From an uncultured Solobacterium sp. (GTDB lineage Bacteria; Bacillota_I; Bacilli_A; Erysipelotrichales; Erysipelotrichaceae), in assembly GCA_900552125.1 (NCBI GenBank), contig URYK01000059.1, forward strand, positions 1 through 14,009: a stretch of 14,009 bases of DNA. Direction: 5' to 3'. The notes beneath the pieces are model-generated. The model was not told where the DNA came from. It made no database searches and saw only the letters and a program-made list of their open reading frames with translations. Below, piece after piece: positions 1 through 12,743 of this stretch (positions are counted from its first letter, which is position 1; every line of letters begins with the position of its first letter). Made by a program: the position numbers and the translations under genes.

Positions 1-12
1 TGGCATATATTT

Positions 13-54
13 GACGCCCTGTGATACTAAACTTACCACTTTTTCAGTGGCGTC
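13..54. other. Inverted repeats at window start, possible IS end
   Basis: Two overlapping inverted repeats are visible: CCACT (36-40) with AGTGG (46-50), and GACGCC (13-18) with GGCGTC (49-54). They share bases 49-50, so they are alternative pairings. A run resembling subterminal sequence of IS200/IS605-type elements follows at about 61-75. This could be the end of an insertion sequence lying to the left, or a terminator of the preceding gene. No coding region is evident in 1-165. Confidence 0.3.
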
Positions 55-116
55 CTATAGGTGGGGGAGGATGTCACACGATAGATTCTCGAATAGAACT
101 TCTGCATAAACAAGAT

Positions 117-126
117 TGGTATAAAT
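117..126 (+). promoter_or_regulatory. Candidate extended -10 promoter for the cas operon
   Basis: TGGTATAAAT fits an extended -10 element (TGN followed by TATAAA) about 80 bases before the cas6 start. No good -35 lies 17 bases upstream. A second possibility is TTGACC at 128-133 followed after 16 bases by TATAGG (150-155). Either would transcribe the whole cas6-cas2 operon. The assignment is inferred from motif shape alone. Confidence 0.35.
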
Positions 127-142
127 GTTGACCGATGATAGT

Positions 143-180
143 GTAAAAATATAGGGAGGGCCACAATGGCACAAATAAAA
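143..180 (+). repeat. Leader-like copy C upstream of cas6
   Basis: By hand alignment without gaps, 143-180 matches 9881-9918 of the CRISPR leader at 29 of 38 positions, including ACAATGGCAYAAATAAAA at its right end. Position 143 starts 63 bases before cas6. The same element therefore occurs at the head of the cas operon and at the head of the array. It may be a shared promoter or regulatory module, or a relic of another leader. Confidence 0.7.
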
Positions 181-205
181 ATCTTAAAGAGAAAGAAGGG
201 GGAAG

Positions 206-928
206 ATGATTCAATTTAATTTAGAGTTTGTCTTGGAAAAACCAGAGTTACCGTTAGAATTAGACCGGCTGCTGGTAAGTTTCTTAAAAGCGTCGTTAGA
301 GAGTGCTTCACCAAAGATGTTTGAGCAATTATATGATAAGAGAAGGTCAGTGGTAAAACCATACACTTTTTCTTATTATCTGCCAGGGGCAAAGTTTAAG
401 GACGAGAAGATATATTTAAGGCAGAATAAGTTCTCGATGTTTTTTTCAAACGCAGATATGGAGCAGACTATTTATTTTTTTAATGGATTTAAGAAAATAT
501 TACATCAGCGTTATCCGATGAATGGTAATTCGATGGAGCTTGTACGCATTAAAAATGTGAGGAGAAAGGAGATAAAGGATCCGGAGATTATTGTGAAAAT
601 GCAGAGTTCTCTCATAGCAAGAAGACATGATGTAGAAGAGAACAGAGATACTTATTATGTTTACGACCATCCAGAATTTTCTCAGGTAGTGAAAGAAAAT
701 GTACAGACGCTAATTGAGAGATTAGGAGTAGATGTCTCAGTAGAAGGCTTTGAGATTGTTCCAATAAAAGGCAAGAAAATTGTTGCAACGATATTTGGAA
801 GAAAGGTAGATGCGAATATTGGAATTTATAAATTATCAGGAAGTCCAGAACTTCTGACCTTTTTATATCGGACAGGGATGGGAGGCAGACGTTCGGAAGG
901 ACATGGGATGTGGGAGATAGTGTATTAA
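206..928 (+). CDS. cas6: Cas6 CRISPR RNA endoribonuclease (type I-B)
   Basis: Cas6 cuts the CRISPR precursor transcript inside each repeat to release crRNAs. At 240 residues it is a normal length for the family. The C-terminal glycine-rich RNA-binding loop is clear at residues 223-236 (TGMGGRRSEGHGMW). The early KPYTFS segment (51-56) is typical of these RAMP-fold proteins. The start ATG follows an AAGGGGG ribosome site. It is the first gene of the operon, 71 bases before cas8b. The N-terminal position that holds a catalytic histidine in many Cas6 proteins, shortly before KPxTFS, reads QLYDKRR here. The only histidines are H100, H141, H155 and H233, so the catalytic residue is unclear. It matches my memory of clostridial Cas6 proteins. 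Confidence 0.93.
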   Translation: MIQFNLEFVLEKPELPLELDRLLVSFLKASLESASPKMFEQLYDKRRSVVKPYTFSYYLPGAKFKDEKIYLRQNKFSMFFSNADMEQTIYFFNGFKKILHQRYPMNGNSMELVRIKNVRRKEIKDPEIIVKMQSSLIARRHDVEENRDTYYVYDHPEFSQVVKENVQTLIERLGVDVSVEGFEIVPIKGKKIVATIFGRKVDANIGIYKLSGSPELLTFLYRTGMGGRRSEGHGMWEIVY

Positions 929-999
929 TAGGATATTTTTAATCAGGCAAAATCTCCTACAAATTGTAACGCACATCTTACAGAAAGGGGGAGAAAAAG

Positions 1000-2775
1000 T
1001 TGGACAGAGTAATTATTACACTCGGTGATTTTCTGAAGAATGCCGGAATTGTAGGTATGAAATACTTGTTGGATATATCCGAAGCAGAAGAAGATTCAGA
1101 TTATGGTATTACATCAGATGAGCAGGGGATTTGGCTGGATAGAGACTTTGCACTTCATGCAGACTGGACAGATTTATATTTTAATGCCTGTGTAAAGTAT
1201 TTTGGAAAAAACACAGTATATCAGGGAGTACTTGACAGAATTGAGCGTTGCCTTACTAAAATAAGGGAAGATAAATGGAATCCAGGAAGAGAAGAAAAGG
1301 ACGATTTAAAGTTTATCACGGAAAAGCTGCTTTCGAATAGCTATCAGAACGGATTCAATATTATCAAAGAGAAGGTAGAGAACCCTGAAGTTTATCTGGA
1401 ACTGAAGAAGAATAAACTTAGTGATAAATTTGAATCTGATGTTTTAAGAAAGCGTTTGGAAGAATTACAGCAATTTTTAACACAGCCGTTATGTAGAGAA
1501 ACTTTTATTATGAAAAGTATAATTTATAATTATATTAACCGATTTTGGGATGGAAAATGTTTCCTTCTTCGGGTAAATGCAAAAAAGGATATGCGGGCTG
1601 TTTTTGAAAAGGATTTTTCGGAACCGTTTCATAAGTACTTAGAAGGTGAACATAAAAAAGCAAAAGATACCTGTATTGACTGTGGAAATGGGATTACTGG
1701 GAAAGAAAAGATTTCTATCGCTTTTATGAAAGAAATGGCAGATGATTTGACAAGAAAGCGTTCCGCTTTCTGGAATTGTCAGGTAGATGCCTTTTTATGT
1801 CCTGTATGTTCCTTTGTCTATGCATTAAGTCCATTGGGATTTCAAATGTATGCAAATAAGTTCGTATTTATGAATTTGAATGAAAACATATCGGTATTAG
1901 TGGATGTGAACGGTAAAAAACGAGGGAACGGTCTTAAGGAAAAAGGAGAAGAAGAAAACTATACAGTATGGTTTGCAAGGATATTGAATAAAGTTCTTTC
2001 TGACAAAGTAAAAGAACTCAATAATGTGCAGGTTATTTTAAGAGGAACACGCGCAGAAGATAATTATATGTTCAGTATTATAGGCAGAGATGCCCTACAG
2101 ATTCTGAAACAGGAAAAGGTACAGAAAGCATTGAAATATCTTGAGCAACACCCATATGTAAAACTTTCTAATGAATTTGTAAATGTTCATGAGAGCGTTG
2201 TTATGAATATTTTGCAGTATCATAAACAGTATAGTTTACTTAATCAGATTTTAAAGGAGTCTCTGGAGAATACTGGAGTAATACCAACGGCATATTGGGT
2301 TTTTGTAGTTCAATTATGCACAAGTATTGAAAAAAGAATGGAAGTAAATGTGGGGAGCATTTCTGAAGAGTTGGAACAATCGCAGCAGGGTATTGAAGAA
2401 AAACTGTCAAAGGCTAAGGAGGGGATATTTATGAGTCGTATTAAAATGAGGGATGCAGGCTATAAATTGCGTAAAGAGATTTTATTAGCAAAAAAAGCGG
2501 AAAATGATGAATGTATGAGGGGAACAATCTATCAATTACTGAATGCTTTGTCTGTGCGAAATGAAGGAAAATTTATGGATATTGTAATACGGTTGTATAG
2601 TTCAACAAAATTACCTATGGCAGATGGTTTCGTTTATATGCTTGGAAATAAGGAGAAGTTTTCAGAGTATGGCTATTCTTTTATACTGGGATTAAAGGGA
2701 AGTTATACAGATAGTAAGGATAGTAAATCAGAAGATACGAAACAGTCACAGGATGAAAGTGGGGAGGAAAATTAA
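1000..2775 (+). CDS. cas8b1: Cas8b1/Cst1, large subunit of type I-B Cascade
   Basis: This is the large subunit of the I-B effector complex, which in characterised systems reads the PAM and helps recruit Cas3. The supported mark is a split CXXC...CXXC zinc-binding pattern, C225/C228 and C267/C270, diagnostic of the Cst1 'CXXC_CXXC' family. The length of 591 residues and the position between cas6 and cas7 fit. The start is a TTG at 1000 behind an AAAGGGGGAG ribosome site, and no better ATG lies nearby. The C-terminus is hydrophilic and rich in Ser, Asp, Glu and Lys, and looks disordered. Its stop codon abuts the cas7 ATG, and the cas7 ribosome site (GGGGAGG, 2761-2767) lies within its last codons, suggesting translational coupling. 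The sequence of this family is fast-evolving, so the subtype name rests on the cysteine motif and the neighbours. Confidence 0.9.
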   Translation: MDRVIITLGDFLKNAGIVGMKYLLDISEAEEDSDYGITSDEQGIWLDRDFALHADWTDLYFNACVKYFGKNTVYQGVLDRIERCLTKIREDKWNPGREEKDDLKFITEKLLSNSYQNGFNIIKEKVENPEVYLELKKNKLSDKFESDVLRKRLEELQQFLTQPLCRETFIMKSIIYNYINRFWDGKCFLLRVNAKKDMRAVFEKDFSEPFHKYLEGEHKKAKDTCIDCGNGITGKEKISIAFMKEMADDLTRKRSAFWNCQVDAFLCPVCSFVYALSPLGFQMYANKFVFMNLNENISVLVDVNGKKRGNGLKEKGEEENYTVWFARILNKVLSDKVKELNNVQVILRGTRAEDNYMFSIIGRDALQILKQEKVQKALKYLEQHPYVKLSNEFVNVHESVVMNILQYHKQYSLLNQILKESLENTGVIPTAYWVFVVQLCTSIEKRMEVNVGSISEELEQSQQGIEEKLSKAKEGIFMSRIKMRDAGYKLRKEILLAKKAENDECMRGTIYQLLNALSVRNEGKFMDIVIRLYSSTKLPMADGFVYMLGNKEKFSEYGYSFILGLKGSYTDSKDSKSEDTKQSQDESGEEN

Positions 2776-4378
<1,603 letters not shown>

Positions 4379-4403
4379 ATTTTGTGTATTGGGGGAATGA
4401 AAT

Positions 4404-6824
4404 ATGGAGTTATATGCAAAATCAAAAGCGAAGCAATTGAGCATCAAGGAAGTAGAAGCATTAAAAGAAACTCTGGAAAGTTTTTTAGACAGTTTAGAAG
4501 GAATACTCACTCCCAAAGAAGAACAGATAATAATTCAGCAAATTCAGAAAATACAGAATCAAAAAGAAGAAAAGCAGAAAACTTTGAAAGAACATGAAGA
4601 AGATATTGTAAAATGTGCCGAAGCTTTTTTCAGAGGATATGGAAAATATTTTACTGAGATAGAAAAAATATTAATTCTCCAAGCTTGCCGCCAGCATGAC
4701 TGGGGAAAGGCAAATCTCATTTTTCAGTCCAAAGTATGTCAGAAAGTACGAGATAATCTGTCGGAGCCTGAGAAAAAAATTTCTCAGATTCCGCATGGAT
4801 TTTTAAGTGCAGTATCTATTTCTTATAAGGAATTTCAAAAATTATATGAAGGATTAGAAAAAGATGATTTTAAGGCTTTTATGACAGCGATTTATTATCA
4901 TCATGATAGAAAAGACGATTTTATTCAGGATGATATAAAAGCATATTGCCAGAAATATTATTTAAAATATCTTTCGGAATATTTGAAAGAAGAGCGGGAC
5001 AAGGTATACAGCAGCCAGATGAGAAAATTGCTTTTCCGAAATAATATGTCAAGCATAAAGTTAGATGTGAAACCTTCTCTCTGGAACAAATATGTTTTAC
5101 TCAAAGGAATGCTGAACAAATTTGATTATACAGTAAGTGCTGGTTATGAATTTGCCGAAGAAAATTCAGATCTGGAAGAAAAAAGGCTGGTAAATAATAT
5201 CAATAAAAATATGAAAGAGCAAAAATTTGCTTTAAAGCCAGCACAAAAATTCATGCAAGAAAATGTAAATAAAAATCTGGTAGTCATTGCCCCGACTGGT
5301 TCGGGAAAGACGGAAGCGGCATTGTTATGGCTTAATGGAGAGAAAGGCTTCTATACTTTACCATTAAAGGTTTCGGCCAATGATATTTATCGAAGAATCA
5401 AGGATGATTATAATTATAAGGATGTAGAACTGCTTCACTCAGATGCAATGCAAAAATATTTAGAAGAAAGTACAAATGCAGCAGATAGTATATATCAGAG
5501 ATATGAAAAAGCCAAATTATTATCTAATCCACTTACGATATGTACCGTAGACCAGCTTTTCAAATTTGTATATCGAGCATTAGGAACGGAAATTTTTGCG
5601 GCAACTTTAAAATATTCTAAAGTCATTCTTGATGAAGTGCAGTCATATGACCCACATATTATAGCAACGATTATAACTGGACTAAAACAAATTACAGAAA
5701 TGGGAGGCCGATTTGCGATTATTACAGCAACTTTTCCTCCTGTCCTAAAATATTTCATGGAAAAATGCGGATTAATCCAGGGAGAACAGTATGAATTTCG
5801 AGATTTTTCTAAAGAATCAGATATTATCCGGCATAAAGTCAAAATAAAATCAGGAGAAATGAACTTTGATGAAATACTTGAAAAAGGCCGGGATAAAAAA
5901 GTGTTAGTTATTTGTAATACTGTCACCAAAGCGCAGGAAGTTTATGAGCAGATTGAGAGCCAGTTAGAAGAGGAAGACCTCCATCTTTTGCATTCTCGAT
6001 ATGTCAAAAAAGACCGCCTGCAACTGGAAAAAATGATTAAGAATTTTTCTGAAAATGAAGAAGAATGCGGAATTTGGATTACAACACAGATAGTAGAAGC
6101 CAGCCTGGACATTGACTTTGATGTATTATATACCGAAATGTGTACGGTAGATAGTTTGCTCCAGAGAATGGGACGCTGCAATCGAAAAGGGCGTTATATT
6201 CCAGAAGAACCGAATGTCATTGTTTATGATAATGCGAATGGAAAGGGAACAGTTTATTATGAAGATATGTATGATCGTTCTCTCGAAAAACTGTATCAAT
6301 ATGAAGATAAAATATTTACAGAAGAGCTGAAAACGGAATATATCAATGCAGTTTACTGCACAGAAGAAATTAAAAAAACAAAGTATTATGAAGAGATTGA
6401 ATACTGGCTAGAACATTTTTCAACAATTCATCCTATAGAATATACCAAAGAAGATGTCGATAAAAAATTTCGAAATATTCATAGCATAACAGTACTGCCA
6501 GATATACTCTATGAAGAAAATCAAGTTCTTTTTGAAGAGGGAGTCAATCTACTCAGAACACCAAATATAAACAAAGACATAAAGAATATCATCACATCTA
6601 AATTTAGCAGTCTGACACTGGGACTTACTTACTATCGTTATAAAGATAATGGGCTAAATGGAATAGATGTCACAACAATCGGCTCTCACGGAGATGACAG
6701 AAAAAATAATTACCCTGTAACACAAATTCACAGAACATCAATGAAATATGATTTTGACCCGGATACGGGAAGGGGAAAAGGTCTTATTTTAGGGGAGATA
6801 GATGATGAGGCATGTATACTGTAA
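4404..6824 (+). CDS. cas3: Cas3 helicase-nuclease (HD plus DExH)
   Basis: Cas3 is recruited to the Cascade R-loop, unwinds the target DNA and cuts it. The 806-residue protein has both halves. The HD nuclease includes H64, H98-D99, H131, H166-H167 and probably D241. The SF2 helicase includes Walker A APTGSGKT (296-303), DEVQ (410-413), TATF (441-444) and motif VI QRMGRCNR (587-594). All expected catalytic residues are present, so it looks intact. GGGGGAA lies seven bases before the ATG. An out-of-frame ATG at 4397 is ignored. The residues before about 60 are charged and lysine/glutamate-rich. It lies between cas5 and cas4, as usual for clostridial I-B operons. Confidence 0.98.
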   Translation: MELYAKSKAKQLSIKEVEALKETLESFLDSLEGILTPKEEQIIIQQIQKIQNQKEEKQKTLKEHEEDIVKCAEAFFRGYGKYFTEIEKILILQACRQHDWGKANLIFQSKVCQKVRDNLSEPEKKISQIPHGFLSAVSISYKEFQKLYEGLEKDDFKAFMTAIYYHHDRKDDFIQDDIKAYCQKYYLKYLSEYLKEERDKVYSSQMRKLLFRNNMSSIKLDVKPSLWNKYVLLKGMLNKFDYTVSAGYEFAEENSDLEEKRLVNNINKNMKEQKFALKPAQKFMQENVNKNLVVIAPTGSGKTEAALLWLNGEKGFYTLPLKVSANDIYRRIKDDYNYKDVELLHSDAMQKYLEESTNAADSIYQRYEKAKLLSNPLTICTVDQLFKFVYRALGTEIFAATLKYSKVILDEVQSYDPHIIATIITGLKQITEMGGRFAIITATFPPVLKYFMEKCGLIQGEQYEFRDFSKESDIIRHKVKIKSGEMNFDEILEKGRDKKVLVICNTVTKAQEVYEQIESQLEEEDLHLLHSRYVKKDRLQLEKMIKNFSENEEECGIWITTQIVEASLDIDFDVLYTEMCTVDSLLQRMGRCNRKGRYIPEEPNVIVYDNANGKGTVYYEDMYDRSLEKLYQYEDKIFTEELKTEYINAVYCTEEIKKTKYYEEIEYWLEHFSTIHPIEYTKEDVDKKFRNIHSITVLPDILYEENQVLFEEGVNLLRTPNINKDIKNIITSKFSSLTLGLTYYRYKDNGLNGIDVTTIGSHGDDRKNNYPVTQIHRTSMKYDFDPDTGRGKGLILGEIDDEACIL

Positions 6825-6859
6825 TATATGATTTATGATTAAATAATGAGGACGAAGGT

Positions 6860-7357
6860 ATGACAGATAAAAGAATCACAGGTGTCATGATTTACTATTA
6901 CTTTGTTTGTAAACGAAAGCTATGGTATTTCTGCCACGAAATCAATATGGAATCGGAAAATGAAAATGTACAGTTGGGAAAGCTTTTGGATGAAAAAAGT
7001 TATGAAAGGGATGAGAAACACATCAATATTGATAATGTGATTAACATTGACTTTATCAGGGAACATCAGGAGTTACATGAAATTAAGAAAAGTAAGGCAA
7101 TTGAAGAAGCCGGAATCTGGCAGGTAAAATATTACCTTTATTATTTAGAAGAACGGGGAGTGAAAAACATTAAAGGTAAAATAGACTACCCTCTTATGAA
7201 GAAAACTTTGTTAGTAGAACTATCCAAACAGGACCGTGAAAAATTAAAATCAATTATTGATGAAATTGAATCTATGAAAAAAGAAGAATTTCCACCAAAA
7301 TTTACAGAACAAAAAATATGTAAAAAATGTGCATATCATGACTTGTGTTTTATATAA
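6860..7357 (+). CDS. cas4: Cas4 exonuclease (RecB-like, Fe-S)
   Basis: Cas4 trims prespacers and sets PAM choice and orientation together with Cas1-Cas2. It is 165 residues, typical of the short I-B form. The iron-sulphur ligands are C17 (FVCKRKLWYF) and the C-terminal C154, C157 and C163 (ICKKCAYHDLC). The PD-(D/E)XK nuclease core is seen as D64, then E74-I-K76 in HEIKKSK, and the QVKYYLYYL RecB motif (88-96). It starts 35 bases after cas3 behind a GAGGACGAAGG ribosome site. The 150 bases between its stop and cas1 are unusual and are annotated separately. Confidence 0.95.
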   Translation: MTDKRITGVMIYYYFVCKRKLWYFCHEINMESENENVQLGKLLDEKSYERDEKHINIDNVINIDFIREHQELHEIKKSKAIEEAGIWQVKYYLYYLEERGVKNIKGKIDYPLMKKTLLVELSKQDREKLKSIIDEIESMKKEEFPPKFTEQKICKKCAYHDLCFI

Positions 7358-7361
7358 AGGC

Positions 7362-7527
7362 AGCAGGGGGTACAAATGGAGCAGAGCTTCAAATATACAA
7401 ATTAGGTAAAGATAATCAAGGTGATTTGAAGAGTAGAACAAATGAAACAAAGCTTAAAATATGCTTTACTTATCTTCTGATGAACTGACTTTTCAGGAGG
7501 GGTACGAATGAAACAAAGCCTATATAT
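7362..7527 (+). repeat. Three tandem copies of the cas1 start region, 66-bp period
   Basis: ATG codons at 7376, 7442 and 7508 (the real cas1 start) are exactly 66 bases apart, each followed by related sequence. ATGAAACAAAGC is identical at 7442 and 7508; the 7376 copy reads ATGGAGCAGAGC. The two upstream frames close quickly, as MEQSFKYTN and MKQSLKYALLIF. Copies 1 and 3 also share the ribosome-site run GGGGTAC. The similarity covers roughly 30 bases per unit and then weakens. The 7376 copy may extend further as a frameshifted relic of cas1 (IYKLGKDNQGDLKSRTN against IYNNGDLKRKDN). Confidence 0.75.
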
Positions 7528-8500
7528 TTATAATAATGGGGATTTAAAAAGAAAAGACAATACATTGCAATTTACAACATATGAAGGGGACAAAAGGGAC
7601 ATACCGATAGAAAGAATTTCAGACATATATATATTGTCGGAAATGTCATTTAACACAGCGTTTATTAACTACATCTCACAGTACGGAATCCCATTACATT
7701 TCTTTAACTATTACAACTTCTATACAGGAAGCTACTATCCAAAAGAAAGCTTACTTGCCGGACAACTTCTCGTAAAACAGGTAGAACATTACACCTGCTA
7801 TGATGAGCGTCTCGTTATAGCAAAAGAATTTATCAAGGCGGCTGCAGATAATATTTATAGAAATTTACGTTACTATAACAGCAGAGGAAAAGATGTAGCT
7901 GAGTGTATGAAAGAAGTAAACAGTCTAAGAAAAAAACTAGACCACACAGAGTTTATCGAAGAACTAATGGGAATAGAAGGAAATATACGAAAAAACTATT
8001 ATAGGGCATGGAACACCATTGTAAATCAGGAAATACAATTTGAGAAAAGAGTGATGCATCCACCAGACAATATGATAAATTCGCTGATTTCTTTTGTAAA
8101 CTCCTTGATATATGCCAAAACATTGAGCGAGATTTACCACACGCAGCTAGACCCAACAATAAGTTATCTTCATGAACCAGGATTTCGAAGATATTCTTTA
8201 TGCCTTGATATATCTGAGGTATTCAAACCACTGATTGGAGACAGATTAATATTTTCTCTATTAAATAAAAACCAGATAACAGAAAAAAGTTTTACAAAAG
8301 AACTAAACTTTTTACATCTAAAAAAGGAAGCATCCCGCTTGATTGTCACAGAATTTGAAAAACGAATGAAACAGACAATCATGCACAAAGAATTAGGGAA
8401 AAAAATCTCTTATCAATATTTAATTCGGTTGGAAGCATATAAGCTCATAAAACATTTGATAGGAGAAAAAGAATACGAAGGGTTTAGAATATGGTGGTAA
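7508..8500 (+). CDS. cas1: Cas1 integrase
   Basis: Cas1 forms the (Cas1)4-(Cas2)2 complex that integrates new spacers at the leader end of the array. It is 330 residues. The metal-binding catalytic residues are E157 (GIEGNIRKNYY), H222 (YLHEPGFRRYSL) and E237 (DISEVFKP), all in their standard motifs, so it should be active. AGGAGGGG lies seven bases before the ATG. The gene ends ...FRIWW with a stop that lies within the first copy of the duplicated cas2 start region. Its own start region is preceded by two decayed copies at 66-base intervals. Confidence 0.98.
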   Translation: MKQSLYIYNNGDLKRKDNTLQFTTYEGDKRDIPIERISDIYILSEMSFNTAFINYISQYGIPLHFFNYYNFYTGSYYPKESLLAGQLLVKQVEHYTCYDERLVIAKEFIKAAADNIYRNLRYYNSRGKDVAECMKEVNSLRKKLDHTEFIEELMGIEGNIRKNYYRAWNTIVNQEIQFEKRVMHPPDNMINSLISFVNSLIYAKTLSEIYHTQLDPTISYLHEPGFRRYSLCLDISEVFKPLIGDRLIFSLLNKNQITEKSFTKELNFLHLKKEASRLIVTEFEKRMKQTIMHKELGKKISYQYLIRLEAYKLIKHLIGEKEYEGFRIWW

Positions 8501-8589
8501 AATATGTATGTGATTTTGGTATATAAAAATTTTTGTGTCTTATAGAAGAATGATGACAGAGGTAAAATATGTATGTAGTTTTAGTATAT
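8496..8589 (+). repeat. 29-bp direct repeat flanking 36 bp at the cas2 start
   Basis: Bases 8496-8524 and 8561-8589 match at 26 of 29 positions, starting with the identical GGTAAAATATGTATGT. The second copy contains the true cas2 ATG (8569). The first would encode MYVILVYKNFCVL and then stop, compared with MYVVLVYDISKD in Cas2. The interval 8525-8560 is 36 unique bases. The 65-base period equals one repeat-plus-spacer unit of the array nearby. Confidence 0.85.
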
Positions 8590-8847
8590 GATATAAGCAA
8601 AGACGAAAACGGACAAAAGAGATGGTCGCATATCTTTAAGATATGTAAAAAATATCTATCTCATATTCAAAACTCTGTATTTGAAGGTGAGATATCCAAA
8701 GTTCAATTAGTAAAACTCCAACAGGAATTAAAAGTATACATTGATTCCAATCTTGATTCTGTAATTCTATTCAAAAGCCGCCAGCAAAAGTGGCTGGATA
8801 AAGAATTTTGGGGTAAGGAAGATGATAAAACAAGCTTTATTTTATAA
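8569..8847 (+). CDS. cas2: Cas2, integration complex subunit
   Basis: Cas2 is the dimeric scaffold that bridges Cas1 dimers during spacer integration. At 92 residues it has the usual length. The N-terminal beta strand ending in the conserved Asp (VVLVYDISKD, D8), the QNSVFEGEI segment and the SVILFK strand are typical of the family. The real ATG is the second of two tandem copies of this start. GAGG at 8559-8562 provides a ribosome site. It is the last cas gene, and a leader-like sequence begins at its stop codon. Confidence 0.97.
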   Translation: MYVVLVYDISKDENGQKRWSHIFKICKKYLSHIQNSVFEGEISKVQLVKLQQELKVYIDSNLDSVILFKSRQQKWLDKEFWGKEDDKTSFIL

Positions 8848-8931
8848 AACTGTCGATGCCCGACAAGGCAAAAAATGAGGCACATCAATAATAGTATAAG
8901 TAAAGGATATGTGATAATTTTTATTTTATAA
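8839..8931 (+). repeat. Leader-like copy A after cas2
   Basis: This aligns without gaps to 9852-9944 in the leader, about three quarters identical over 93 bases and 59 of 75 in the core. It begins at the cas2 stop and contains a perfect hairpin TGTCG-ATGCC-CGACA (8851-8865), which is semi-conserved in the true leader. No repeats follow it; hicAB follows instead. The hairpin has no U-run and is not a good terminator. Confidence 0.8.
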
Positions 8932-8958
8932 TACATAACAAATTGCGTATTGATTTGA

Positions 8959-8987
8959 TTGACACATAATAAATTATGTATTAAAAT
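8959..8987 (+). promoter_or_regulatory. hicAB promoter with overlapping operator palindrome
   Basis: A consensus -35 TTGACA (8959-8964), a 17-base spacer and the -10 TAAAAT (8982-8987) sit just upstream of hicA. Inside the spacer is the palindrome ACATAAT-AA-ATTATGT (8964-8979) with perfect 7-bp arms. Further CATAA/TTATG half-sites flank it at about 8934 and 8991. This is the expected arrangement for HicB binding its own promoter and blocking RNA polymerase. Confidence 0.75.
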
Positions 8988-9009
8988 ATGTTATGTAAGG
9001 AGGGATGAG

Positions 9010-9207
9010 ATGAAAAGTTATTCATCCAGAGAAGTGATTGGGATATTGAAGAAAGATGGATGGTATGAGGTTGCTTGTGTTGGCGATCATCACCAATTCA
9101 AACATTCAATTAAAAAGGGCAGGGTAACAGTTACTCATCCTAACAAAGATATTCCAATCAAAACCTTACGAAGTATATCAAAGCAGTCTGGAGTTATGTT
9201 TCCGTAA
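9010..9207 (+). CDS. hicA: HicA mRNA-interferase toxin
   Basis: HicA is a small double-stranded-RNA-binding-fold ribonuclease that cleaves mRNA and stops growth unless bound by HicB. It is 65 residues from ATG 9010. The motif set KKDGWYEVACVGDHHQFKH contains the conserved Gly-x-His-His (G25, H27, H28; the catalytic His region), and TVTHPNKDIPIKTLRSISKQ is the usual C-terminal half. I reject the longer frame opening with TTG at 8959, because that codon is the -35 box and the mRNA would start near 8994. AAGGAGGG lies five bases before ATG 9010. It is followed 29 bases later by hicB. Confidence 0.93.
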   Translation: MKSYSSREVIGILKKDGWYEVACVGDHHQFKHSIKKGRVTVTHPNKDIPIKTLRSISKQSGVMFP

Positions 9208-9236
9208 CTTCTCTGCACATAACGGAGGTGTTAATT

Positions 9237-9668
9237 ATGTCAAAAGACCGATATTCTTATGTAGCTGTTTTTTCTTATGAAGAAGATGGTATTAGTATTG
9301 AATTTCCCGATTTACCTGGATGTCTTCCATGTGCTGAGAAAGATAATACAGAGGAAGCTTTAAAAAATGCTAAAGAAGCTCTTGGGCTGCATATATGGGG
9401 CATGGAGCAAGATGGTGAAGAGATTCCCGTTCCAACTCCGATTACATCGATTCATTTGGATTCTAACGAAGTTCCTGTATTGATTGAGGTATTTATGCCG
9501 CCTGTTCGTGAAAGGATTAATAGTCGTTTTGTAAAGAAAACTTTGTCTTTACCTGCATGGCTGGCGGCCAAAGCCGATGAAGATGGTGTTAATTGTTCCA
9601 GAATATTTCAACTTGCTCTGATGAATTATTTACAGGTCAGTGAAGAGAATAAAGCAGGAAGCAACTAA
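9237..9668 (+). CDS. hicB: HicB antitoxin and autorepressor
   Basis: HicB neutralises HicA and represses the hicAB promoter. It has 143 residues. The N-terminal partial RNase-H-like domain is seen in YVAVFSYEEDGISIEFPDLPGC (8-29) and the helix TEEALKNAKEALGLHI. The C-terminal part (FVKKTLSLPAWLAAKADEDG to the end) resembles a ribbon-helix-helix DNA-binding domain. The start is ATG 9237, eight bases after GGAGG; an in-frame GTG at 9228 overlaps that ribosome site and is unlikely. The toxin-first gene order is the common HicAB order. It is the last gene before the leader. Confidence 0.95.
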   Translation: MSKDRYSYVAVFSYEEDGISIEFPDLPGCLPCAEKDNTEEALKNAKEALGLHIWGMEQDGEEIPVPTPITSIHLDSNEVPVLIEVFMPPVRERINSRFVKKTLSLPAWLAAKADEDGVNCSRIFQLALMNYLQVSEENKAGSN

Positions 9669-9674
9669 TTTAAT

Positions 9675-9712
9675 GAAATTCCGTTTGGTTAATATCGGAT
9701 GGGATTTCTTTA
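9675..9712 (+). terminator. Terminator-like hairpin after hicB
   Basis: GAAATTCC (9675-9682) can pair with GGGATTTC (9701-9708) in an 8-bp stem with one G-U pair, followed by a short T-rich run (TTCTTTA). It lies just past the hicB stop. The loop is long (18 bases) and the U-tract is weak, so termination may be partial. Confidence 0.45.
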
Positions 9713-10028
9713 GGTTCATAGGCGGTTTAAAATGAAAAATATAATTCTAAGTTGCAGTTTGATTATATTACAGTGAGTCTGCTGATAAGTAGAGAAGTAA
9801 GAATATACATTTAAAAAATTAAAAGAAATAGCATACGCGGTAAGAAAAATAAAATTATAGAACTGTCGATGTTCGATAAAGTAAAAAACAGGGGACATCG
9901 ACAATGGCATAAATAAAAGATATATGATAATTTTTAAATGAGAATATAAGGGAAAAACACAGATTGAGTCTAAGATCGACAGAAATAGGAGTGAAAAAGT
10001 AGGAAAAATGAGGAAAATTAAGTAACGG
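9713..10028 (+). promoter_or_regulatory. CRISPR leader
   Basis: This is a non-coding AT-rich stretch of 316 bases immediately left of the first repeat. The opposite array end has a decayed repeat, so the leader is here and new spacers should enter here. It contains a perfect inverted repeat TGTCGATG (9864-9871) and CATCGACA (9896-9903), a candidate structural or protein-binding element. The segment 9852-9944 (copy B) is shared with 8839-8931, and 9881-9918 with 143-180. I see no convincing -35/-10 pair; TATGAT at 9923-9928 is a possible -10. The rest, 9713-9850, holds nothing I recognise. Confidence 0.8.
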
Positions 10029-12743
10029 GAATTAATAGAAACATTGTGGAATGTAAATGTGGACAGGATAAAATGCCGGAGCTATAACATCTGGGAATTA
10101 ATAGAAACATTGTGGAATGTAAATTAGTTCTTCATTGCCCCAGCCTGATAACAATAAAGAATTAATAGAAACATTGTGGAATGTAAATTATTTGTCAGTG
10201 GGCGATATTACAAGTAATAGAACCGAATTAATAGAAACATTGTGGAATGTAAATATAGGTAATTATTTGTCACAGTACTCAGGTAATTAGAATTAATAGA
10301 AACATTGTGGAATGTAAATTTAAGCTCTTACGATAAATCATACAAGTAAATCATAGAATTAATAGAAACATTGTGGAATGTAAATACCCCATCGGGTTTT
10401 AATCTTGATTTGACTCTGCGAATTAATAGAAACATTGTGGAATGTAAATATTTCTATTGCCCTGGCAATCGCCGGAGAACCATTAGAATTAATAGAAACA
10501 TTGTGGAATGTAAATTATTAATCATTGCGGCACTCCTTTCTCTTATCGGTCGAATTAATAGAAACATTGTGGAATGTAAATTTTGATAAGACAGACAGAA
10601 GGTTTCCACGCTATCTGAATTAATAGAAACATTGTGGAATGTAAATTATGTTGCAGAGGAACATTATCAAAAAAAATTAAGAATTAATAGAAACATTGTG
10701 GAATGTAAATTTTCGTGCCAGTCAAGTACGAAATGTTTTAATGTGAATTAATAGAAACATTGTGGAATGTAAATACTTATCTAAATATTCCTTTTCCTGT
10801 TCTGCTAAAGAATTAATAGAAACATTGTGGAATGTAAATAATTTCTAATGGTTTCTTATCATCTGTACTTCCCAGAATTAATAGAAACATTGTGGAATGT
10901 AAATAATGATGAATTAAGTTCGCGGTCCTTTGCAGCACGAGAATTAATAGAAACATTGTGGAATGTAAATGTGATAAAAACGGTTTAGGGATAGCCAGCG
11001 GAACCACGAATTAATAGAAACATTGTGGAATGTAAATTTTGCTCTAGTTCCGCTATAATCTCCGGGGTGCAGGTGAATTAATAGAAACATTGTGGAATGT
11101 AAATACCGAAGCTTCGATTGTTAGAAACGCGAAGACAACGAATTAATAGAAACATTGTGGAATGTAAATATCCCCGTTTACTCGTACATTTTCTGACAAA
11201 AAAATGAATTAATAGAAACATTGTGGAATGTAAATAGAGAATTGGAACAAATACTAGGAAAATGGAAGCCAGAATTAATAGAAACATTGTGGAATGTAAA
11301 TGTAACAAACATTAGCGTCAATTCAGAACAGTTGGACGAATTAGTAGAAACATTGTGGAATGTAAATTACCAACGGCGGCGAGGCAGTACATCGCAACCC
11401 CAGAATTAATAGAAACATTGTGGAATGTAAATTTTAAGGTTGTGCTGTACGAAGTAGACGGCTACACAGAATTAATAGAAACATTGTGGAATGTAAATAA
11501 CATTGTCTGTACGGTAATCTCTTTGTCCCCTAAGAATTAATAGAAACATTGTGGAATGTAAATGAAGCAGCGAGTACTTTATTCGCCTTAATCATGTCAG
11601 AATTAATAGAAACATTGTGGAATGTAAATTGATTTCTTTTAGATACGGAGTCTTATCATTTCTCCAGAATTAATAGAAACATTGTGGAATGTAAATTTTT
11701 TAGATGTGGAAAGGATTTATTTATGAATTTTGAATTAATAGAAACATTGTGGAATGTAAATCCAAGAAATTCATCGAGCATATCAAGAAAATACTGAGAA
11801 TTAATAGAAACATTGTGGAATGTAAATAATGACACAATCACCGAACCAAATAAATTAAAGATGAATTAATAGAAACATTGTGGAATGTAAATTGATCTGT
11901 GAAGAATCCATCCCCTTTCTGGTTTCTGAATTAATAGAAACATTGTGGAATGTAAATTCAATTACCGCTATAACGTGCCCTGACAGTGCTAGAATTAATA
12001 GAAACATTGTGGAATGTAAATTCAGAAAGGCCCTACGCCCTAACTGCTCAGCCGCCAGAATTAATAGAAACATTGTGGAATGTAAATAATATGCAATAGA
12101 TCATCTTGACGCTGATTGGAACGGAATTAATAGAAACATTGTGGAATGTAAATACACCGGCAGATATTTTGGAGTGTGCCAGTAAGCTGAATTAATAGAA
12201 ACATTGTGGAATGTAAATAAAATCCTGTCTGTGACTCCTGCAGGTTAACGCAGCCGAATTAATAGAAACATTGTGGAATGTAAATCTTTTAAGAATTTAA
12301 AAGAAAGGGGACAGAACGTCCGAATTAATAGAAACATTGTGGAATGTAAATTGCACTCTCGATATGTAAGTCTCCACGGCTCCATTTGAATTAATAGAAA
12401 CATTGTGAAATGTAAATTTCTGGCATATCCTCTTCGGCATCTTCCGGAATTTCGAATTAATAGAAACATTGTGGAATGTAAATTGAAATCACTCCTTTTT
12501 ATTTATTTAAAACCCTTTAGAATTAATAGAAACATTGTGGAATGTAAATCTAAATATTGTTCCGATTCCTTTTGTAAACAAATCGAATTAATAGAAACAT
12601 TGTGGAATGTAAATGATGATACAAATGTAAATGATGTGGTTAAAATTAGAATTAATAGAAACATTGTGGAATGTAAATATGTCTTGTAATTAATAAAGCG
12701 GCTGTACAAACCTGAATTAATAGATACATATTGGAATGTAGAT
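10029..12743 (+). CRISPR. Type I-B CRISPR array, 42 repeats and 41 spacers
   Basis: The 30-bp repeat begins GAATTAATAG and ends GGAATGTAAAT. I count 42 copies separated by 41 spacers of 34-37 bases (mean about 35.5). Thirty-nine copies look identical. The 21st (11338-11367) has A7 to G, the 37th (12388-12417) has G21 to A, and the last (12714-12743) has four changes. The repeat can form a short hairpin, ACATT-GTGG-AATGT (positions 13-26). With transcription on the + strand, an 8-base 5' handle would be ATGTAAAT. Orientation rests on the decayed right end, the leader at the left, and the 3' end shared from memory with C. difficile I-B repeats. I noticed no duplicated spacers. Open frames across this region, repeating INRNIVECK or HSTMFLLI, are artefacts of the repeats. 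Confidence 0.99.
12714..12743 (+). repeat. Degenerate leader-distal terminal repeat
   Basis: This differs from the consensus at positions 12, 17, 18 and 28. The changes reduce the predicted stem from five to four base pairs. A decayed last repeat is normal for the trailer end of an array and fixes its polarity. No further repeat follows directly; 12744-12856 is AT-rich and shows nothing I recognise. Confidence 0.93.

Follow-up and report, generated by a model that had tools for sequence, protein, structure and literature searches.

Candidate off-array spacer integrations at the starts of cas1 and cas2 in a type I-B CRISPR-Cas operon

We analysed a 14,009-nt stretch of DNA from an uncultured Solobacterium sp., hereafter the window. 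It carries a type I-B CRISPR-Cas operon, followed by a HicA/HicB pair and then by a CRISPR array (Table 1). The repeat and spacer lengths that a first-pass annotation had given for the array were borne out. The HicA/HicB pair (PF07927, PF15919) lies between two copies of a 92-bp stretch, 77% identical, at 8842-8933 (just after cas2) and 9855-9946 (before the array); these copies perhaps represent a duplicated leader segment with a toxin–antitoxin insertion. The nearest genome, G001, is near-identical to the window, with 33 differing aligned positions over 9 kb and none in either cas junction. Its contig holds 9 copies of the window's array repeat, and 3 exact spacers are common to it and the far end of the window array. 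About 116 bases between cas6 and the next gene in G001 (L120, ~916-1032) are absent from the window (~942). Two more G001 arrays with related repeats occur on other contigs, L131 and L198, with 33 and 23 copies, respectively.

Table 1. Features of the window.
Feature	Position	Strand	Details
cas6	206-928		
Cas_CXXC_CXXC protein	1000-2775		
cas7	2776-3651		
cas5	3629-4378		
cas3	4404-6824		
cas4	6860-7357	+	TIGR00372, E 1e-21
c1, first and most decayed cas1-start copy	7367-7398	+	ATG 7376, MEQSF; 24/32 to 7433-7464, lag 66
Core of first cas1 interval	7399-7424	+	part resembles cas1 codons 8-15
c2, second cas1-start copy	7425-7456	+	ATG 7442; 25/32 to 7491-7522, lag 66
Second cas1 interval, 36 nt (proposed host-derived spacer)	7457-7492	+	truncated arm of host palindromic repeat
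c3, third copy with working cas1 start	7491-7522	+	ATG 7508
cas1 (type I-B)	7508-8500	+	TIGR03641, E 5.7e-134; working ATG 7508
Upstream copy of cas1-stop/cas2-start junction (proposed target duplication, 29 nt)	8496-8524	+	26/29 to 8561-8589; absent from relatives
cas2 interval, 36 nt (proposed spacer)	8525-8560	+	without significant similarity to anything searched
Downstream copy with working cas2 start	8561-8589	+	ATG 8569
cas2	8569-8847	+	TIGR01573, E 4.4e-13; working ATG 8569
CRISPR array	10029-12743	+	42 repeats of 30 nt, 41 spacers of 34-37 nt

The junction between the cas1 stop and the cas2 start is present twice. The repeat finder returned the same values as the first-pass annotation: a 29-bp pair, 26/29 identical, with 36 bases between the copies and a spacing of 65 bp. 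In the upstream copy, an ATG at 8504 opens MYVILVY and is followed shortly by a stop codon. The downstream copy keeps cas2, as had been proposed. Outside the 29-mers the period ends: 8525-8560 matched 8590-8625 at 9/36 positions and 8460-8495 at 8/36. With an array repeat of 30 nt and spacers of 34-37 nt, the cas2 period of 29 + 36 = 65 therefore fits a repeat plus a spacer. During spacer acquisition, Cas1–Cas2 attaches a prespacer to the two ends of a target as long as a repeat, and the target is thereby duplicated. The first-pass annotation had suggested such an insertion at the cas2 start, with tandem duplication and decay as the main alternative. Tandem duplication with uniform decay is unsupported for cas2, since identity falls to 9/36 when the period is carried on into the interval.

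We compared the cas1–cas2 junction with those of relatives. In 36 of the 46 relatives with a readable cas2 start, cas2 begins 4-15 nt past the last cas1 codon. Unrelated gaps of 29-159 nt separate the two genes in 9 of the 46, and the extra copy was found only in the G001 record (L001). L003, taken on the wrong strand and with a contig of 57174 bases like that of L064, was left out of the relatives; so was L060, whose contig ends before any cas2. L041 and L048 were dropped as redundant from the profile and constraint tests. According to BLAST, 30 of 397 family genomes gave some match. Nine family genomes aligned in two pieces that overlap on the subject by 21-29 bases. The overlap is exactly 29 in G203, G417 and G150, in which one 29-base stretch aligns to both window copies and, judging from these alignments, is a single ancestral stretch. 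G396, G064 and G233 aligned in one piece across the junction, with 42-56 bases fewer. Among the 17 readable loci from this search, the copy occurred only in L090, which is G001 again; L106, which gave no cas2 start, was excluded here. The relatives are thus single-copy at cas2, as the empty site of an off-array product would be, and the difference at this junction is clean, the insertion being common only to the window and G001.

The relatives were also scanned for pairs of at least 22/29 identity at lags of 40-100. Besides arrays, the scan returned two weak pairs near genes, each of 22/29: one in L052 at lag 66, matching the cas1 end to cas2 codons, and one in L063 at lag 65, ahead of cas1; both were rejected, neither being a copy of a gene start. 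In L057, L058 and L067, where the cas1–cas2 gap is 69-75 nt, a short sequence resembling TTGGTGGTAA is found at the end of cas1 and recurs immediately ahead of cas2, the two being ~64-70 nt apart. These stretches, too short to judge, are possibly a parallel junction duplication. L070 holds several loosely conserved, decayed-array-like repeats spaced 61-66 nt apart at ~918-1140, ~3 kb before cas1.

The cas2 interval did not resemble cas2. Against cas2 nt 22-75, its best score was reached by 366/400 shuffles and its mean by 214/400; alignment to cas2 codons past the start, named beforehand as the result that would speak against insertion, did not occur. A match to the cas2 3′ end was not accepted, its best score being reached by 27/400 shuffles, and there was no significant similarity to cas1 or the rest of the window. 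These results bear on the possibility that the locus arose when the 5′ ends of the genes were simply duplicated in tandem and then decayed and took up small insertions, the CRISPR-like period being a coincidence. We consider that history unlikely. It would leave homology through the whole period, which is missing at cas2, even though the flanking copies are 26/29 identical, and is partly present at the first cas1 interval, considered below.

Searches of phages, plasmids and G001 for the source of the cas2 interval, a step proposed in the first-pass annotation, yielded matches at chance level only, and two exact patterns of the interval were not found in viral contigs. The absence of a source says little, given that phage matches at E 0.01 were obtained for at least 2 of the 41 array spacers, at 5 places in 2 records, with one place per record displayed. 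The spacers at 10516-10551 and 11302-11337 match MT837225.1 and MT835469.1, which are records of phages from human faeces.

The 150 bp between cas4 and cas1, outside the coordinates of the first-pass annotation, hold two additional copies of the cas1 start. Counting the working one, three ATGs follow one another in steps of 66 bp (7376, 7442 and 7508). By eye, such copies were seen in none of 46 other records, in which this flank is not alignable, and the scan of relatives found no pair before cas1 except in L001 itself and the weak one in L063. The three duplications have periods of 65, 66 and 66 bp, each an array repeat plus a spacer. Under tandem duplication, these periods would be coincidence.

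The second cas1 interval resembles DNA found elsewhere in the host. Positions 7457-7479 match dozens of places in G001, many as inverted pairs ~90 bp apart. On sequence grounds, the source of the interval is a palindromic interspersed repeat scattered through the host genome, which we take to be MITE- or REP-like. For 7457-7492, matches of at least 28 bits to the host repeat numbered 21, versus 0.7 for shuffles, and the best single score was reached by 3/100 shuffles. The best arm-plus-flank match was 29/36 ungapped, or 80-83%. In 1.288 Mb of G001 we found 33 core matches: both the stem and the partner arm were present in 27, at least one of these in 30, and neither in 3, which are chance-like by look; the reversed-core control gave 0. 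What the window holds is one arm of 36 nt, unaccompanied by a stem. Its homology to the host repeat ends on the left where the c2/c3 repeat ends (between 7456 and 7457) and on the right where c3 starts (7491). Divergence is alike in the duplicated copies (7/32) and between the insert and the host repeat (7/36 at best), as expected from one event. An origin in cas1 nt 19-160 was not accepted: the best score was reached by 50/400 shuffles and the mean by 7/400, and the scores were also reached by 107 and 130 of 300 window segments.

Host-repeat DNA at this position is a further difficulty for tandem duplication. A host-repeat insert between direct repeats could also arise by break repair with templated filler, in which a short piece is copied from elsewhere and the local sequence is duplicated without Cas1–Cas2. 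We regard such repair as distinctly improbable, as it gives no reason for duplications of 29-32 bp with inserts of 34-36 nt every time and does not account for the clustering at cas1 and cas2. Moreover, no comparable non-array case was recognised among the pairs listed for 1.288 Mb.

The first cas1 interval was tested as two 36-nt frames, 7392-7427 and 7397-7432. Within it, 22 nt match a relative's cas1 codons 8-15 at 20/22, and nhmmer places the interval colinearly on cas1, linked to the c1 start (E 0.0013). Against cas1, its best score was reached by 1/400 shuffles and its mean by 11/400. The coding differences of c1 are cas1-like, being of kinds seen in relatives, for 5/5 in 15 nt (P 0.0001) and 5/9 in 21 nt (P 0.027). 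Both the colinearity and the 15-nt result favour tandem duplication here, with c1 as a duplicate of cas1 codons 1-18 that received a 14-nt insertion. Because part of it resembles cas1 codons 8-15, the first interval may be a decayed duplication, or it may be an old insertion. A relationship to the host palindromic repeat was rejected, the score being reached by 161/300 shuffles, and one exact pattern of the interval, sought in viral contigs, was not found there.

Some of the differences between the copies and the working starts are of the kind found among relatives, as seen in c1 and in the upstream cas2 copy, where 2/3 coding differences are relative-like (P 0.086). This pattern would also suit ghost starts, left behind when recombination replaced the resident cas1 and cas2 by the versions of another lineage. 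Such a replacement seems highly improbable, as it would neither interleave ghosts before each gene nor yield one period. Furthermore, c1 and c3 share 8/9 nt before the ATG, a stretch not seen by eye before cas1 in the relatives displayed.

To gauge how unusual the pairs are, we scanned window positions 1-9990 exhaustively for ungapped 29-mer pairs at lags of 20-300. The top three were at 8496 (lag 65, 26/29), 7425 (lag 66, 23/29) and 7370 (lag 66, 23/29). In a G001 sample of 120 stretches, which together make up 1.288 Mb of some 3.3 Mb, 98 pairs reached 23/29 or more at lags of 40-100 before filtering, and 79 remained after filters for complexity (≥0.58) and interval identity (<0.5). The complexity cut-off was set after a stricter filter, which left 4 pairs, proved to drop the window's own pairs; the interval-identity filter excluded one further lag-66 pair (L214). 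By reading, 53 of the 79 belonged to two arrays; among the 26 that lay elsewhere, 3 had lags of 64-67. The best lag-65 case, at 12361 of L237 (27/29), was set aside as, by look, an operator-like duplication with a palindrome, upstream of a transporter-like gene, and the pairs in L184 and L137 as short tandem repeats by look. The non-array pairs give an expectation of 0.023 per 10 kb at lags 64-67 versus 3 in the window, a comparison that is a yardstick and no clean P value, two of the three window pairs sharing a copy and the window having been picked by a reader.

The copies did not stand out in likeness to the native CRISPR repeat. The best agreed at 16/30, a value reached by 12% of window positions, and the other four at 13-14/30. 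Target likeness to the native repeat, which is a tendency and no requirement of off-array products, is at background level only, and no copy matched the locus repeat as a member of a CRISPR array would.

One of the three intervals has an identifiable source, and in the sampled copies of that source a PAM-like YCN motif lies within 1 nt of the fragment. In 28/28 stem-bearing host arms, a single base separates YCN from the fragment edge, and the side is the expected one. Similarly, CCA lies 5′ of both inspected phage protospacers, although for one of them this requires tolerating mismatches at the first three bases. The PAM evidence is modest: YCN is common, occurring at 8.5% of positions; the offset was given a tolerance of 1 nt; and the arms were selected by a stem pattern that already includes CCA or TCA. 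Across 1.288 Mb of G001, host matches of the 41 array spacers did not exceed 19 nt; self-sampling is therefore not seen in the array.

Overall, we favour by a little (probability about 0.55) the interpretation that two, perhaps three, off-array integrations by the operon's own type I-B Cas4–Cas1–Cas2 occurred at this locus, one of them with host DNA. The duplicated targets, of the ~30 nt expected, measure 29 nt at cas2 and about 32 nt at cas1. Inserts of spacer length unrelated to the target are present at cas2 (36 nt) and in the second cas1 interval (34-36 nt), and that in the first is doubtful. The interpretation builds on the repeat geometry, the empty cas2 site in relatives, the host origin of one insert, and the operon with its array. 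From these we infer, with moderate confidence, that Cas1–Cas2 was the agent; this reading is preferable to the others considered, though unproven. The insertion originally suggested for the cas2 start gains from the clean difference in relatives, the lack of cas2 alignment and the similar geometry found twice before cas1, once with a host-derived 36-nt insert; for the cas2 interval itself, phages, plasmids and G001 offered chance-level matches only. The cas1-side evidence strengthens off-array integration as the explanation. Against it stand the lack of a source for the cas2 and first cas1 intervals, targets unlike the CRISPR repeat, and the partly cas1-like character of the first cas1 interval.

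In the proposed mechanism, the integrase would join DNA pieces of ~36 bp to staggered positions ~30 bp apart, once at the cas2 start and once or twice at the cas1 start. Gap filling would then leave the target duplicated on both sides of the insert. With the ribosome site and start codon intact in the downstream copy, the gene would survive and the upstream copy could decay freely. The gene starts presumably survived because the duplicated target restores the ribosome site and ATG, and survivorship alone may explain the places hit. Cas6 probably leaves these copies unprocessed, which could allow a spacer of host origin to persist in them. A bolder version, which we hold to be doubtful, is that the adaptation complex repeatedly writes into its own gene starts, at least once with host DNA, and so builds proto-arrays in which self spacers, unlikely to be processed into guides, survive, the clustering reflecting a cis preference or feedback on adaptation. 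If so, self-derived spacers would persist at gene starts although they would be harmful in an array.

Laboratory work has established off-array integration, which has been proposed as a route to new arrays. Natural fossils that combine a duplicated target with an insert the size of a spacer, relatives whose site is empty and a source in the host would demonstrate its occurrence in nature. They would further show that the integrase's own operon can be a target and that silent self-derived spacers can persist. The geometry of the repeat pairs provides a testable search rule for other genomes. In the in vivo study compared here, the host was reportedly E. coli, and the repeat-length target is said to have been duplicated at off-array sites too.

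Off-array (non-canonical) spacer integration in vivo was described by Nivala et al. 2018, as cited in excerpts of PMC11788318, PMC9456107 and PMC11394691. As in that account, the window carries spacer-length inserts outside an array. There, as cited, Cas1–Cas2 was overexpressed, whereas here the events would be fossils of a type I-B system with Cas4, in the integrase's own operon. In vitro, according to PMC6895254, Streptococcus thermophilus Cas1–Cas2 made off-target integrations into plasmids at targets that are not CRISPR, and G was preferred at the border. G is also the first base of the cas2 copy, but those sites are described as resembling the leader–repeat junction, unlike the background-level similarity to the native repeat seen here. 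The titles and abstract openings searched, a scope that most subscription papers fall beyond, contained no work on insertions at cas gene starts. For the type I-B system of Clostridioides difficile, excerpts of PMC8406132 give a YCN PAM, 34-40-bp spacers and the chromosome as one of the sources, all of which resemble the spacer lengths, YCN motif and host DNA source described here. By contrast, the C. difficile spacers went into arrays, in a strain with plasmid-expressed adaptation genes. Off-array integration is already known; fossils of it in the integrase's own operon look new.
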